Positions 25,566-35,226 of a stretch of 36,577 bases of DNA are shown one piece after another. The position numbers and the translations under genes are program-made. Under the pieces are notes generated by a model. It made no database searches, was not told the origin of the DNA, and was given only the letters and a program-made list of their open reading frames with translations. Each line of letters starts with the position of its first letter. Position 1 is the stretch's first letter. This DNA is from a virus: positions 1-36,577 of the IMG/VR virus record IMGVR_UViG_3300021964_006388; one strand, given 5' to 3'.

Positions 25566-25782
25566 ATTTCTGCATCTCCACTATAAGCCTGTTCAAGTAC
25601 CATGCTGATTTCTGTAGGTCTTGCACAGGATTTTCCTTATGCTCAAACCGCCATATATATTTTATTACACTGCCTTGGAGATAGTACGTGTAGCCATCTC
25701 CAAGTGCAGCCTTTATAGCATCAATGCACTCAATGTCACCCTGCTTATAATGGGGTGGATGATTGACGTAATCGTCAGCCAT
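25552..25782 (-). CDS. DUF3310 protein
   Basis: A 76-residue product with the full DUF3310 signature: NHPPHYKQGDIECIDAI and GSVIKYIWRFEHKENPVQDL, then KSAWYLNRLI. The family is widespread in phages as a small nucleotide-kinase-associated protein of uncertain biochemistry. It lies between the DnaA-like and nuclease genes and overlaps both slightly. Confidence 0.92.
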   Translation of the reverse strand: MADDYVNHPPHYKQGDIECIDAIKAALGDGYTYYLQGSVIKYIWRFEHKENPVQDLQKSAWYLNRLIVEMQKYGED

Positions 25783-26161
25783 CTAAGCCAGCCGCCTTCT
25801 TAATAGCAGCAATGTCACGGTTCATCATCGTGGCACCACGGCTACGATTCGCCAGTTTATTAGCCACATAGTAAACCGTTGTATGGTCTTTGTTCATTGC
25901 ACGGCCAATCTGAGGAAAGCTGAGTGTCGTATACTCACGAGCCAGATACATAGCTATGTGCCGCGCATGTACGAACTTGGCTGGCCTACGAGCCGATAGT
26001 AACTCGTTCCTAGTAACGCCTGTCACCGTGCATGTAGCGCGGATAATGCGCTCCATAGGCGGTAGGCAGTGATGCGCTGGTGCCTCAATCTCAGAGGCTG
26101 TCAAATTCCGCGCCGTAGTCGTGCCGAACAACTTGCTCAATATTTTTCCGAAAACATTCAT
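25775..26161 (-). CDS. Stand-alone DnaA domain IV-like DNA-binding protein
   Basis: A 128-residue product whose residues ~36-103 match the DNA-binding domain of DnaA: helices RIIRATCTVTGVTRNELLSA and ARHIAMYLAREY, then the signature MNKDHTTVYYVANKL (compare GRDHSTV in DnaA). No AAA+ ATPase domain is present. It may bind DnaA-box-like sites on phage or host DNA. I prefer ATG 26161 with AAGGAG upstream; ATG 26188 adds nine residues. It overlaps the zinc-ribbon gene by 71 nt in another frame. Confidence 0.88.
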   Translation of the reverse strand: MNVFGKILSKLFGTTTARNLTASEIEAPAHHCLPPMERIIRATCTVTGVTRNELLSARRPAKFVHARHIAMYLAREYTTLSFPQIGRAMNKDHTTVYYVANKLANRSRGATMMNRDIAAIKKAAGLDG

Positions 26162-26315
26162 GTCCACAAAACTCCTTTTTTGCCCCATTCACAATGCCGG
26201 GGTCTATGTTCCAATCAAATCCCTTGCCACAAAAACTGCATGTACCCGGTCTAACCGTACGCTTTACCTTGACGGTCTTGTTACGCTTAATGCCCGGCCA
26301 CATGCCCAGAACCAT
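26091..26315 (-). CDS. Small zinc-ribbon protein
   Basis: A 74-residue product: TCSFCGKGFDW gives CxxC and FCGHECFRKN gives the second pair after about 21 residues, a likely zinc-binding knuckle of the HNH-like or treble-clef kind. An HNH nuclease is not supported since the second half is short. Basic N-terminus. It overlaps the genes on both sides. Confidence 0.68.
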   Translation of the reverse strand: MVLGMWPGIKRNKTVKVKRTVRPGTCSFCGKGFDWNIDPGIVNGAKKEFCGHECFRKNIEQVVRHDYGAEFDSL

Positions 26316-28981: not shown

Positions 28982-29364
28982 CCAACGGACGCAGAAAAGG
29001 AGCCAATTTCGAGAGAGAGCTTGCTCGTATGTGTATGGACGAACTAGGTATTGACGGTGTGAAAAGAGACATCGAACAATACAGAGCCGCCGAACACGGT
29101 GACTTGGTAGGCATTGACGGCTGGACTGTCGAGGCCAAGCGGTATGCTCACGGCGTCATTCACAAGCCGGAATGGTGGGAGCAAGTTGAAACGGCGGCTG
29201 ACGCATCCGGCACTGAGCCTGTGCTTATCTACAAGTATGACCGTCACCCGATACGTTGTGTTGTGCGTCTGTCCAGCATCAACGCTGACTTTGCTGGTAA
29301 GGATGACTTGGCAACGATTAGCTTTGAAACGTGGTGCATGTTGGTCAGGGAAAGCTGGGCGTGA
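28978..29364 (+). CDS. Holliday junction resolvase-like PD-(D/E)XK nuclease
   Basis: A 128-residue product with motifs in order: GANFERELARM (Glu12 or Glu14), HGDLVG with Asp42, and TVEAKRYA with Glu52 and Lys54. This matches archaeal Hjc/phage-type resolvases and related small nucleases. It would resolve branched DNA during replication or before packaging. Linked to neighbours by ATGA and TGATG overlaps. Confidence 0.83.
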   Translation: MTNGRRKGANFERELARMCMDELGIDGVKRDIEQYRAAEHGDLVGIDGWTVEAKRYAHGVIHKPEWWEQVETAADASGTEPVLIYKYDRHPIRCVVRLSSINADFAGKDDLATISFETWCMLVRESWA

Positions 29365-29927
29365 TGGATAGCAACATAGAAGCTGGCTTTCGCATTGTAG
29401 GTGCAAATATGCGCGGCGACAGGCAAAAGGATGATTTCTATGCCACGCCGCCACAGGCCACGCTTGCCCTGCTCGACAAGGAAAAGTTCTATGGCGACAT
29501 ATACGAGCCGTGTTGCGGTCAGGGGCATATCAGCAAGGTGCTTATAGGCGAGGGATTTGACGTTGAATCAACAGATTTAATCGACCGTGGTTACGGTACG
29601 CCGGGCATTGACTTCCTGATGGAAACCAAGCGGCGCGATAACATTATTACTAATCCGCCGTATGGAAAGTTGGCACTACCGATGGCGGAGCATTGCCAAG
29701 ATATTGCCACAAATAAAACCGCCTTATTGCTGAAACTTAGTTTCCTTGAAGGCGTTGCCAGAAAGCAATTTTTCTTAGAGAAACCGCCGATTCGCGTCTG
29801 GGTATTCTCAAAGCGAATGAACCTAATGAAAGACGGCCAGCAATACAAAAATGGCGGAATGATGGCACTGGCTTGGTTTGTATGGGAGACAGGCTATCAA
29901 GGAAAAACAACAGTGGGGTGGATTTGA
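29364..29927 (+). CDS. DNA N6-adenine methyltransferase
   Basis: A 187-residue class I methyltransferase. SAM motif I is YEPCCGQGH at 47-55 and the catalytic motif is IITNPPYGK with NPPY at 97-100, typical for N6-adenine (or N4-cytosine) DNA methylation. No target recognition domain is obvious, so specificity may be relaxed, as in phage Dam-like enzymes. Likely protects phage DNA from host cutting or marks it for replication control. Confidence 0.85.
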   Translation: MDSNIEAGFRIVGANMRGDRQKDDFYATPPQATLALLDKEKFYGDIYEPCCGQGHISKVLIGEGFDVESTDLIDRGYGTPGIDFLMETKRRDNIITNPPYGKLALPMAEHCQDIATNKTALLLKLSFLEGVARKQFFLEKPPIRVWVFSKRMNLMKDGQQYKNGGMMALAWFVWETGYQGKTTVGWI

Positions 29928-30516: not shown

Positions 30517-30785
30517 GTATTGACGAAATCTACAAATTTATGCGTGAACTTGATGAAAGATGGATTCAAGGTGACATGGACGTTGATGACATCCACAAGG
30601 CGCTGGCGGCACTTAGGTTGGCGACATATGGCTGGTCTAAATCTCGCCAATCCACTGAAGGTTTGAGCTGTAGAAATATGGCGTTAGATATAAAGATTGA
30701 GGAACTTGAAAAAATCGTTGAGGAAAAAAGCGAAGAAATAGAAGTTCTGAAAAAGAACATCGAAAAGTTAAAGGGGAAGAAATGA
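30513..30785 (+). CDS. Small coiled-coil protein
   Basis: A 90-residue product with a helical N-terminal half and a C-terminal coiled coil (EELEKIVEEKSEEIEVLKKN). ATGA overlaps join it to both neighbours, including the replication initiator. Function unknown; a replisome accessory role is only a guess by position. Confidence 0.68.
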   Translation: MSIDEIYKFMRELDERWIQGDMDVDDIHKALAALRLATYGWSKSRQSTEGLSCRNMALDIKIEELEKIVEEKSEEIEVLKKNIEKLKGKK

Positions 30786-31558
30786 GCATAAAGGCAGTTA
30801 GCTGGGCATTTGACCAGCAGATAGGCGACCCAATGGCAAAGCTGGTGCTGATAGCAGTGGCTGACCATATCAATGAAAGCACTGGTGACGCATGGCCTAG
30901 CATTGAACGGTTACAGCATATGACCAGTGCCAGCCGCCGAACCATCCAACGCAAGCTGAAAATGCTAGAGGAAGATGGGTACTTGGAACGCAAAAAGCGA
31001 TTCAATGATACCGATTTGTACTCACTTGGTGCTAGGGGTGTCACAGTGACACGGGGTGTCACACAGTCACCTCTAGGGGTGTCACACAGTCACCCTAACC
31101 ATAATAGAACCGTTATACTAAATAATAAGGGGAAATCTAAAAAACAGCTTTTAGTGGATTGGACGCCTGATGATGCTGATAAGCAGTATGCAACCGAACA
31201 CGGCCTAGATTGGTCAGATACTTTTACCGATATTCAGCTATGGAATGAGAAAAACGGAAATAAAGCCGCATACGCGTCCTTAAAGGCATTTTGGCAGGTT
31301 TGGGTGCGGAAAGAGGCTAAAGACCGTCCAGCGCGCTTAAATCGCCAGCAATCGGCATGTGAGAGCAAAAGGGTAGCTACCCTGTCGCCGAAACAGGAAG
31401 AATATGCGAAATCAGCGGCTCTGAAGCTGGCGCAGCAGTATAAGGATGAATATTTCAGATATGATGACATCCTCAAGGCAGTTAATGCTTTTATGCTGAC
31501 TGACCAGACGGATGAATCTTGGAAGGCGATTGGTCTTGGCTTGCCCCGGCCGTTTTAG
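30782..31558 (+). CDS. Replication initiator (O/DnaT-like)
   Basis: A 258-residue product. Residues ~15-72 are a winged helix (DAWPSIERLQHMTSASRRTI, then RKLKMLEEDGYLER) like lambda O or HTH_36 proteins. Residues ~84-108 are a Gly/Ser/His linker written over DNA repeats. Residues ~125-180 (LVDWTPDDADKQYATEHGLD, then LKAFWQVWVRKEA) resemble the DnaT-like helicase-loading domain. It would bind the origin and recruit host helicase. No helicase or polymerase is encoded nearby. Confidence 0.83.
   Translation: MSIKAVSWAFDQQIGDPMAKLVLIAVADHINESTGDAWPSIERLQHMTSASRRTIQRKLKMLEEDGYLERKKRFNDTDLYSLGARGVTVTRGVTQSPLGVSHSHPNHNRTVILNNKGKSKKQLLVDWTPDDADKQYATEHGLDWSDTFTDIQLWNEKNGNKAAYASLKAFWQVWVRKEAKDRPARLNRQQSACESKRVATLSPKQEEYAKSAALKLAQQYKDEYFRYDDILKAVNAFMLTDQTDESWKAIGLGLPRPF
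31032..31165 (+). other. Candidate replication origin: iterons plus AT-rich tract inside the initiator gene
   Basis: Three repeats with core GGGGTGTCAC begin at 31035, 31053 and 31076. Units 2 and 3 are identical over 18 bases yet lie in different reading frames (23 nt apart), so DNA and not protein is conserved. Unit 1 contains the perfect 15-bp palindrome GTGTCACAGTGACAC (31038-31052). An AT-rich tract follows at about 31097-31165, suited to unwinding. Lambda has the same plan within its O gene. Confidence 0.72.
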
Positions 31559-31568
31559 GCGGTCAAAC

Positions 31569-31616
31569 TTGGGACATAATGGGACACACCCCTATGGGGT
31601 GTCCCAATGTCCCAGT
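31569..31616. terminator. Long hairpin between converging genes
   Basis: TGGGACAT and TGGGACAC on the left pair with GTGTCCCA and ATGTCCCA on the right, giving a two-part stem with a small bulge and central CCC/GGG pairs. It fills the 60-nt gap between the rightward initiator gene and the leftward HNH gene. T runs are poor, so strength as a terminator is uncertain. It also contains GGGGTGTC, the iteron core. Confidence 0.6.
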
Positions 31617-31618
31617 GA

Positions 31619-32509
31619 CTAGGTTGTTTTGTATTCGTGCAGATGGTTATCACGAAAATATAGCCAGTTTTCATATAGAGGCTGGAAGCTGCTGACAAAC
31701 TTGTTTGATTTTTTGCTGTTCTTCTTTGTCAGGATTATTTCAAGATTCCACGGCACGTTCAAGCCGCTGACAATCTCGTTTTGCAGTGGCACGATATGGT
31801 CAACAGCCCAAGTGTTTTTTCCGTCAAGCATATTTAGCTGGTATCGTTCTTGCTCTATTTGTTTTATAGCGTTCATATCAACCCATTTGGGAGTTGCTTG
31901 CTTCAATGCTTTTTCACGGCGTTTTGATGCGTCATATTTTGAGGCGCTAACCCTTATAGGCTTTCTTCTTGTGCCATCGAAGAAATAGTCACATTTCATT
32001 GCGTCAGATGTGTTTTTCATCATCAGCAAACGCAAACCTATCTTGGCTTTACTCTCACCCCTTGCTTTGCATATTTTTTCAACACGATTGTAATAATCGT
32101 CATCAATGTACAATTTTAATTTGTGTACGGTTTTATATAGCTGTTTATGTTTTGTCCTGACGAAAAGCAAATCGCACGGCGTTGCGTAAGTGTTGCCATA
32201 TCTGCCGACATAAATTTTCTTTGCCAAAAGTTTATAGAAAACATCTGGCTCATTACGCCCTATTTTCGTTGCTTCTGTCAGAGTGCCTCGCCTTGGCACA
32301 TATGGTATGTGTTCGCTTATTTTTGAATCTTCACGATTACCAGTGCTGTAATCGACATAATATTCGTCTGACTGAATAACAAAATTCTCAGGCAAGTTTT
32401 TTACATCGGTATCATGCTTGAATTGCATAACGATATCTTCGTGACCATCAAGGCAATCAGCCGGAACCCACTCAAAGCTCCGGCTGTTGTTTGTTGCTAA
32501 ATTATTCAC
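31619..32509 (-). CDS. HNH endonuclease
   Basis: A 296-residue product. The HNH core is near the C-terminus: WAVDHIVPLQNEIVSGLNVP then WNLEIILTKKNSKKSNKF. The remaining ~220 residues are basic, with VHKLKLYIDDDYYNRVEKIC in the centre, and probably bind DNA. It may be a free-standing homing endonuclease. It ends the leftward block of small genes and its start overlaps the previous stop as ATGA. Confidence 0.82.
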   Translation of the reverse strand: MNNLATNNSRSFEWVPADCLDGHEDIVMQFKHDTDVKNLPENFVIQSDEYYVDYSTGNREDSKISEHIPYVPRRGTLTEATKIGRNEPDVFYKLLAKKIYVGRYGNTYATPCDLLFVRTKHKQLYKTVHKLKLYIDDDYYNRVEKICKARGESKAKIGLRLLMMKNTSDAMKCDYFFDGTRRKPIRVSASKYDASKRREKALKQATPKWVDMNAIKQIEQERYQLNMLDGKNTWAVDHIVPLQNEIVSGLNVPWNLEIILTKKNSKKSNKFVSSFQPLYENWLYFRDNHLHEYKTT

Positions 32510-34458: not shown

Positions 34459-35226
34459 CTAATGAGTTAAAAATACCACTGGCTTTGAAGCTTGCCAGCA
34501 TAAACCGCAATCACCGCATGAATCGGCAAGGGTTGGCTCATCTTTCTTTGCAAGCTTGCCAGTCGTTTTGCTGATTTGTGTAGGGCAGATAAAAGCTTTT
34601 TTGGCTTTCAGCAAATCCGCTGCCCTATCATCATCAGCCGACAAAGCCGAAAAATCATCAGTAAATGAGCCGGAAAAACGCACCGCAAAACGGATACCGC
34701 AAGCTAGGCGCAACGATAGGATAGCTTGACCAATTGCGCGTTCTTTGTTGTCTGGTGCGTCAAATTGGTTGGCAGTGTATCCGTAAACATGCAAAGCCGG
34801 AAACATTGCCAGCCATTTTGCCCATTGCGCCACATATGACACGCTGAAAAAATCGCCTAGCACATGCAAACGCACTAAAAAGCCATTCGGATGCTTGGCT
34901 TGATAATAGGTTAAATCGGCTTCAATTTGATGAATAAGTGATTCATCAGCTTGATAGCGTGTGGCGTTCATCATGTTATTGCCGTAACAATCAGCATAAT
35001 GAATGCAAGACGCCGGACAGGTGGCGCGTTCTTCTAGCGTTAAAGTAAGAATCGGAAAGCCAGCAAGCTTGCCTTTTGTTACACGCTTGCCAAGCTTGAC
35101 GTTTGTCGAAACTTTCAAGGCGCGTTCTGATTTTGCCATACCGTCTGAAACGGATTTTACGCGCAAATCGTGATACACGGATTTGCCAGCCATTACGGCT
35201 TTTTGTGTTTTAGTCAATTGTTTCAT
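34459..35226 (-). CDS. Cys-rich GP88-like protein
   Basis: A 255-residue product, first gene of this leftward block. Cys clusters ERATCPASCIHYADCYGNNM (near 88-107) and DSCGDCGLCW near the C-terminus suggest a metal or iron-sulfur site. The whole pattern resembles the phage GP88 family, whose biochemistry is unknown to me. The RLHVLGDFFSVSYVAQWAKW stretch is also typical of that family. AAGGGG lies 8 nt before the ATG. Confidence 0.72.
   Translation of the reverse strand: MKQLTKTQKAVMAGKSVYHDLRVKSVSDGMAKSERALKVSTNVKLGKRVTKGKLAGFPILTLTLEERATCPASCIHYADCYGNNMMNATRYQADESLIHQIEADLTYYQAKHPNGFLVRLHVLGDFFSVSYVAQWAKWLAMFPALHVYGYTANQFDAPDNKERAIGQAILSLRLACGIRFAVRFSGSFTDDFSALSADDDRAADLLKAKKAFICPTQISKTTGKLAKKDEPTLADSCGDCGLCWQASKPVVFLTH

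Follow-up and report, generated by a model that had tools for sequence, protein, structure and literature searches.

A putative replication origin inside its own initiator gene in a virus genome, and a suggested recognition code between its winged helix and iterons

Does the replication initiator gene of this virus carry, within its own coding sequence, the sites from which its product starts genome copying? The question is raised by a virus record of 36,577 bases (the window, by which the whole stretch of DNA analysed is meant), in which the replication region of interest lies near 31 kb and a set of repeats stands inside the initiator gene. Origins located inside the initiator gene are established for lambda O, SPP1 gp38 and pSK41 Rep (PMC7466680, PMC6022878, PMC6316719, PMC5703833). 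The best reading of the locus is an iteron origin of this plan, putatively read by the winged helix that the same gene encodes.

The initiator gene (30782..31558, + strand), identified from its open reading frame and from Pfam and PHROG matches, encodes a protein of 258 amino acids composed of an HTH_36 winged helix and a C-terminal half. The protein matched PF13730 (HTH_36) at an E value of 9.9e-12 with 44.9 bits, against a curated cut-off of 25, and PHROG 1032 (replication initiation) at 2.8e-18, so that both searches place it among the HTH_36 initiators. In the same Pfam analysis no match to PF04492 (Phage_rep_O) was obtained, which sets the protein outside the lambda O family. The winged-helix DNA-binding domain (residues 1-82; 30782..31027, +) was delimited by Pfam and by an AlphaFold2 model of mean pLDDT 74. 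The predicted recognition helix comprises residues 52-64 (30935..30973, +), as indicated by the model and by the covariation described below. The C-terminal half (31139..31558, +), to which recruitment of the helicase or its loader may be assigned, is common to phages with a different winged helix and linker. Between these two folded parts, codons 86-118 form a disordered linker (pLDDT < 50), and this is the stretch encoded by the repeats and by the AT-rich tract that follows them. As the linker protein is disordered, its sequence would be free to serve as DNA. A PDB sequence search with the initiator returned nothing significant, and the fold search returned only generic winged helices at an E value of about 0.02, among them the repressors Fur, MarR and ArsR and the centromere-binding winged helices TubR and AspA. 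No helicase or loader gene was found among the early ORFs tested.

The region 31035-31094 holds three GGGGTGTCAC repeats, which start at 31035, 31053 and 31076. Copy 1 reads GGGGTGTCACAGTGACACG, and it contains a 15-bp palindrome, GTGTCACAGTGACAC, at 31038-31052; copies 2 and 3 both read GGGGTGTCACACAGTCACC and are identical over 19 nt. All three can be described as one 17-bp element, in which two 6-bp arms, the right one inverted, surround a 5-nt spacer: iteron 1 (31037..31053, +; GGTGTC-acagt-GACACG), iteron 2 (31055..31071, +; GGTGTC-acaca-GTCACC) and iteron 3 (31078..31094, +; GGTGTC-acaca-GTCACC). In the palindromic copy the unit is unchanged except that its right arm is symmetric. No second good iteron copy or iteron set was found elsewhere in the window. 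An earlier note on this DNA had described three repeats within the initiator gene, one of them with a 15-bp palindrome, placed in the linker between two parts of the protein and followed by an AT-rich tract, and each of these observations was recovered here. Its further statement that the repeats are out of frame with each other is right for one copy; the spacings are 18 and 23 nt, which leaves copies 1 and 2 in one reading frame and puts copy 3 in another.

In the clade L115-L123, the iteron arms were invariant and the spacer was variable (acaga, acact, actct, acaca). Many other families share the geometry but have different half-sites, as read by eye; Pseudomonas phages, for instance, have GGTGCA/TGCACC, and marine phages have GGTGAA/TTCAGG. 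Simple dyad counts across the relatives gave a broad range of spacers (3, 5, 6, 8); the 6-N5-6 arrangement is therefore the rule in the window's clade and in many others, and one marine group also uses an 8-nt spacer.

Directly after the iterons lies an A-biased tract (31095..31150, +) that is 71% AT and represents a putative unwinding element. It is very unstable, with 31101-31141 falling in the least stable 0.12% of the window's 40-nt stretches (rank 43 of 36,537). The adjacent AT-rich tract of an iteron origin is thus present here, on composition and stability. The tract also contains two AACC motifs 11 nt apart (31097-31100 and 31108-31111, +), a single pair, which form a weak example of a phased (G)AACC repeat that is widespread among relatives. 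This phased repeat occurs in shifting frames in the AT tract 3' of the iterons, in phages of Actinobacteria, Alphaproteobacteria and Gammaproteobacteria including the cultured relatives (L246-L269). AACC pairs 11 nt apart numbered 18 against 2.6 expected, with a maximum of 7 in 100 codon permutations, and pairs 17 nt apart numbered 9 against 2.1 expected. Our guess is that the element acts as an unwinding or single-strand-binding signal. No description of a phased AACC element was found in the open-access literature, a scope outside which most subscription journals fall.

Repeats within a coding sequence may reflect either the protein or the DNA. When the linker was recoded synonymously, none of 20,000 recodings reached a 19-nt exact repeat, the maximum being 14 nt; therefore, the repeats are not a by-product of the protein. 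Four-fold synonymous divergence among 11 unique initiator genes, all close relatives in the window's clade, was 4.9% in the iterons and 10.5% in the AT tract, compared with 28.6% and 26.7% in the N-terminal and C-terminal parts. The iteron DNA is thus about six-fold more conserved at synonymous sites than the gene elsewhere. Amino-acid divergence in the same 11 genes was 12.5% in the iterons and 12.4% in the N-terminal part. Because synonymous divergence is low while amino-acid divergence equals that of the flank, the iterons are, on this comparative evidence, selected as DNA, and the selection is not for the disordered linker protein. The claim of the earlier note that the DNA itself is under selection is borne out by these values. 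So is the check it proposed, of repeat conservation against codon drift, since the linker amino acids change as elsewhere while the iterons are kept. The opposite pattern, in which amino acids are kept and DNA repeats are lost and which the note had named as a refutation, is contradicted by the conserved synonymous sites of the iterons. The DNA-level claim is further supported by an identical base change seen in iterons that are read in different frames.

Among 38 representatives and some 24 cultured relatives, phages or plasmids, nearly all had repeats at this position of the gene, so the in-gene arrangement, a candidate origin as read from sequence, is widespread in this initiator family. 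Eight of these relatives (L250, L252, L255, L256, L259, L264, L265 and L266) carry other motifs, and the relatives include extrachromosomal records (Arsenophonus, Sulfitobacter, Microbulbifer). A close-family query scan of genome contigs gave no relative, nor was there any match when the 3' half of the window was searched by megablast against phage records or the initiator gene by distant blastn against plasmids.

L003 and L019 match at every base of the 2,017 bp upstream and are 98.3% identical from initiator codon 120 onward, and the winged helix and linker between these flanks are unrelated. Since the flanks are near-identical and the middle is unrelated, the DNA-binding domain, iterons and AT tract appear to move together. 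The pairs L007/L020 and L010/L020 share the right edge of the cassette, equivalent to window position 31139. Judged from these junctions, the winged helix, iterons and AT tract are exchanged as one cassette, and the C-terminal half stays.

Variation between relatives also linked the sites to two residues of the recognition helix. At residue 53 (codon 30938-30940, +), which covaries with iteron base 5, the window and L232, L235 and L236 have Arg and all other members of the window's clade have Ser. Where Arg53 is present, iterons 2 and 3 end in GTCAC, and where Ser53 is present they end in GACAC; the base change is made in two frames, giving Ser to Thr in one copy and Ser to Arg in the other. 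Residue 57 (Arg in the window; codon 30950-30952, +) covaries with iteron base 6. This was analysed in a set of 62, representatives and cultured relatives combined, covering phages of Actinobacteria, Alphaproteobacteria and Gammaproteobacteria, with the base called blind to the protein as the commonest GTGxy in the linker; 50 genes were callable with y = A or C. Arg57 was accompanied by C in 31 genes and A in 2, and other residues by A in 16 and C in 1 (Fisher 5e-10). Residue 57 ranked first of 95 alignment columns, the next-best p being about 1e-3, and the association was absent when the first 70 or the last codons were read in place of the linker. The cultured relatives (L246-L269) had been picked after the residue-57 hypothesis was fixed, and taken alone they gave 4/1 against 1/8 (p 0.023). 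Kepler and Marchesin, which were added later, both obey the rule.

The closest comparison is provided by the Arthrobacter phages PhluffyCoco and Renna12, whose domains are 88% identical and whose helices differ only in R57 versus N57. The sites of PhluffyCoco (R57) read GGGGTGxC and those of Renna12 (N57) read GGGGTGxA. In Arthrobacter phages that differ at R57/N57, the change extends to every GGGGTGx[C/A] site (8/8 C and 15/15 A). With a stricter GGTG anchor the counts were 28/2 against 2/13 (p 1.3e-7), several genes being mixed, and the callable exceptions to the code are L223, L263 and L269. Codon-permuted genes kept a weak association (median p 0.0045, minimum 7e-6), because part of the signal resides in the amino acids of the linker. 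Independent contrasts on a shallow, poorly resolved tree yielded three supported pairs, each of them either in agreement or neutral (p 0.25); the domain is short and the tree poorly resolved, so with three pairs the phylogenetic sign test cannot reach significance. The concerted change of the sites and the two helix residues suggests a readable recognition code, and cassette exchange and covariation both point to the DNA-binding domain and the iterons being cognate. A search of the open-access literature, which leaves most subscription journals outside, found no description of an HTH_36 residue-to-base code. We consider it an evenly balanced proposition that a portable HTH_36 code, in which bases 6 and 5 are read by residues 57 and 53 respectively, predicts the origin from the protein, and that (G)AACC every 11 or 17 nt is an unwinding or loading signal shared across actinobacterial and proteobacterial phages with differing iterons.

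Taken as an origin, the locus resembles several known systems. The lambda ori, in gene O (L270, NC_001416; PMC7466680, PMC6022878), likewise has its iterons and an AT-rich tract midway along the initiator gene, and lambda O, as in the window, combines N-terminal DNA binding and C-terminal partner interaction through a flexible linker. The iteron spacing is also alike (20-24 nt in lambda, 18 and 23 nt in the window). However, lambda has four iterons of 18 bp against three in the window, and a separate loader, P, whereas none was recognised in the window. The earlier note had proposed a lambda plan with unrelated iterons; this is right for the protein families (PF04492 at 5.7e-36 in lambda O, HTH_36 PF13730 in the window), although in dyad geometry the 6-N5-6 pattern is matched 6/6 by lambda iteron 1 and 5/6 by lambda iteron 3. 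SPP1 gp38 binds direct repeats and an AT-rich unwinding element within its own gene, oriL, and as described (PMC6316719) this resembles the window; SPP1 differs in its distant oriR and in its own loader and helicase. In pSK41, a staphylococcal plasmid, the RepA_N initiator has four Rep boxes central in rep, and the ori-encoded central domain is a linker (PMC5703833). The repeats thus lie mid-gene and encode the linker, as in the window, although the domain is RepA_N and not HTH_36. In the PLE RepA/ori system, the DNA-binding domain varies in step with the iterons and the two are exchanged as a module with the C-terminus kept, as in the window's family, and specificity was established by experiment (PMC8263062). 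The system differs in having an intergenic origin and a RepA_N domain, and no proposal of a residue-to-base code was found there.

On this basis, 31037-31150 can with high confidence be regarded as a putative replication origin inside the part of its own initiator gene that encodes the linker. The encoded initiator very probably uses these sites to start genome copying, and the locus is probably a functional in-gene origin of the known kind. The winged helix would bind each 17-bp iteron as two 6-bp half-sites around the 5-nt spacer, with residue 57 probably reading half-site base 6 and residue 53 base 5, as covariation supports. Three adjacent bound iterons would then strain and open the AT-rich tract (31095-31150), and the host replicative helicase or its loader would be recruited through the C-terminal half. 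The binding step is most likely in view of the covariation and cassette exchange, and the opening and recruitment steps are most likely by analogy to lambda O, SPP1 gp38 and pSK41 Rep. GC skew was rejected as origin evidence. The earlier note had expected a peak at 31.0-31.2 kb as a check, and cumulative skew rises to a maximum rather than falling to a minimum at 31-32 kb; it follows gene orientation, which dominates the skew and makes it uninformative on the origin.

Winged helices are commonly regulators, and the protein might instead bind its own gene to repress or time transcription while replication starts elsewhere. The dyad half-sites are operator-like and the fold neighbours include the repressors named above, but the sites are some 250 bp into the gene, away from the promoter, and are followed by the unstable A-biased tract. 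The second folded half of the protein, its replication-initiation family matches and the lack of a second iteron set in the window also argue against an operator, which we consider quite improbable. Some relatives are extrachromosomal and TubR and AspA are among the fold matches, which would suit a role of the repeats in partition or copy control, as a centromere-like or incompatibility site that the initiator binds in a plasmid-like prophage whose origin lies nearby. Among the window proteins tested, however, no partition ATPase was recognised, and the AT tract and cassette architecture match origins, so that this explanation is highly improbable; it is also partly compatible with an origin, as iterons can serve both roles.

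The proposal that a low-complexity linker (GVT/GVS...) grew by duplication, its DNA having no role, draws on the disordered, repeat-prone nature of the linker and on some spacer changes that are common to copies within one gene. It is extremely improbable given the six-fold conservation of synonymous sites in the repeats, the same DNA in copies read in different frames, the failure of all 20,000 recodings to match and the covariation of the repeats with the recognition helix.

With the in-gene origin as the preferred reading, the lambda-type plan would extend to a large, mostly unannotated phage initiator family, and origins could be located by sequence alone. As a single gene holds both the initiator and its binding site and passes them on jointly, natural variants offer a ready-made experiment on how both change specificity together. 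The plan itself was already known; the added value lies in the residue-to-base correlation and the phased AACC element. The correlations at residues 57 and 53 constitute concrete, cheaply testable predictions.

Several further observations were made in the relatives and around the gene. In L011-L020 and L021-L030, the same C-terminal half is carried on unrelated N-terminal domains, and the linkers contain their own short repeats, for example CCGTATACGG every 15 nt. An ORF at 25775-26188 (-) weakly matched the DnaA-like PHROG 27829 (E 0.008). A 198-aa ORF at 29331-29927 (+) matched only the C-terminal part of a DNA methyltransferase (phrog_799, positions 207-379 of 458) and is possibly truncated or split. 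Outside the replication region, 34459-35226 (-) encodes a Pfam GP88 family protein (5.5e-10). A very stable hairpin (31570-31614; z -4.9) separates the initiator gene from the gene at 31619-32509 (-), with which it converges. The hairpin is kept in L002, is replaced by other sequences in other relatives, and is probably a terminator.
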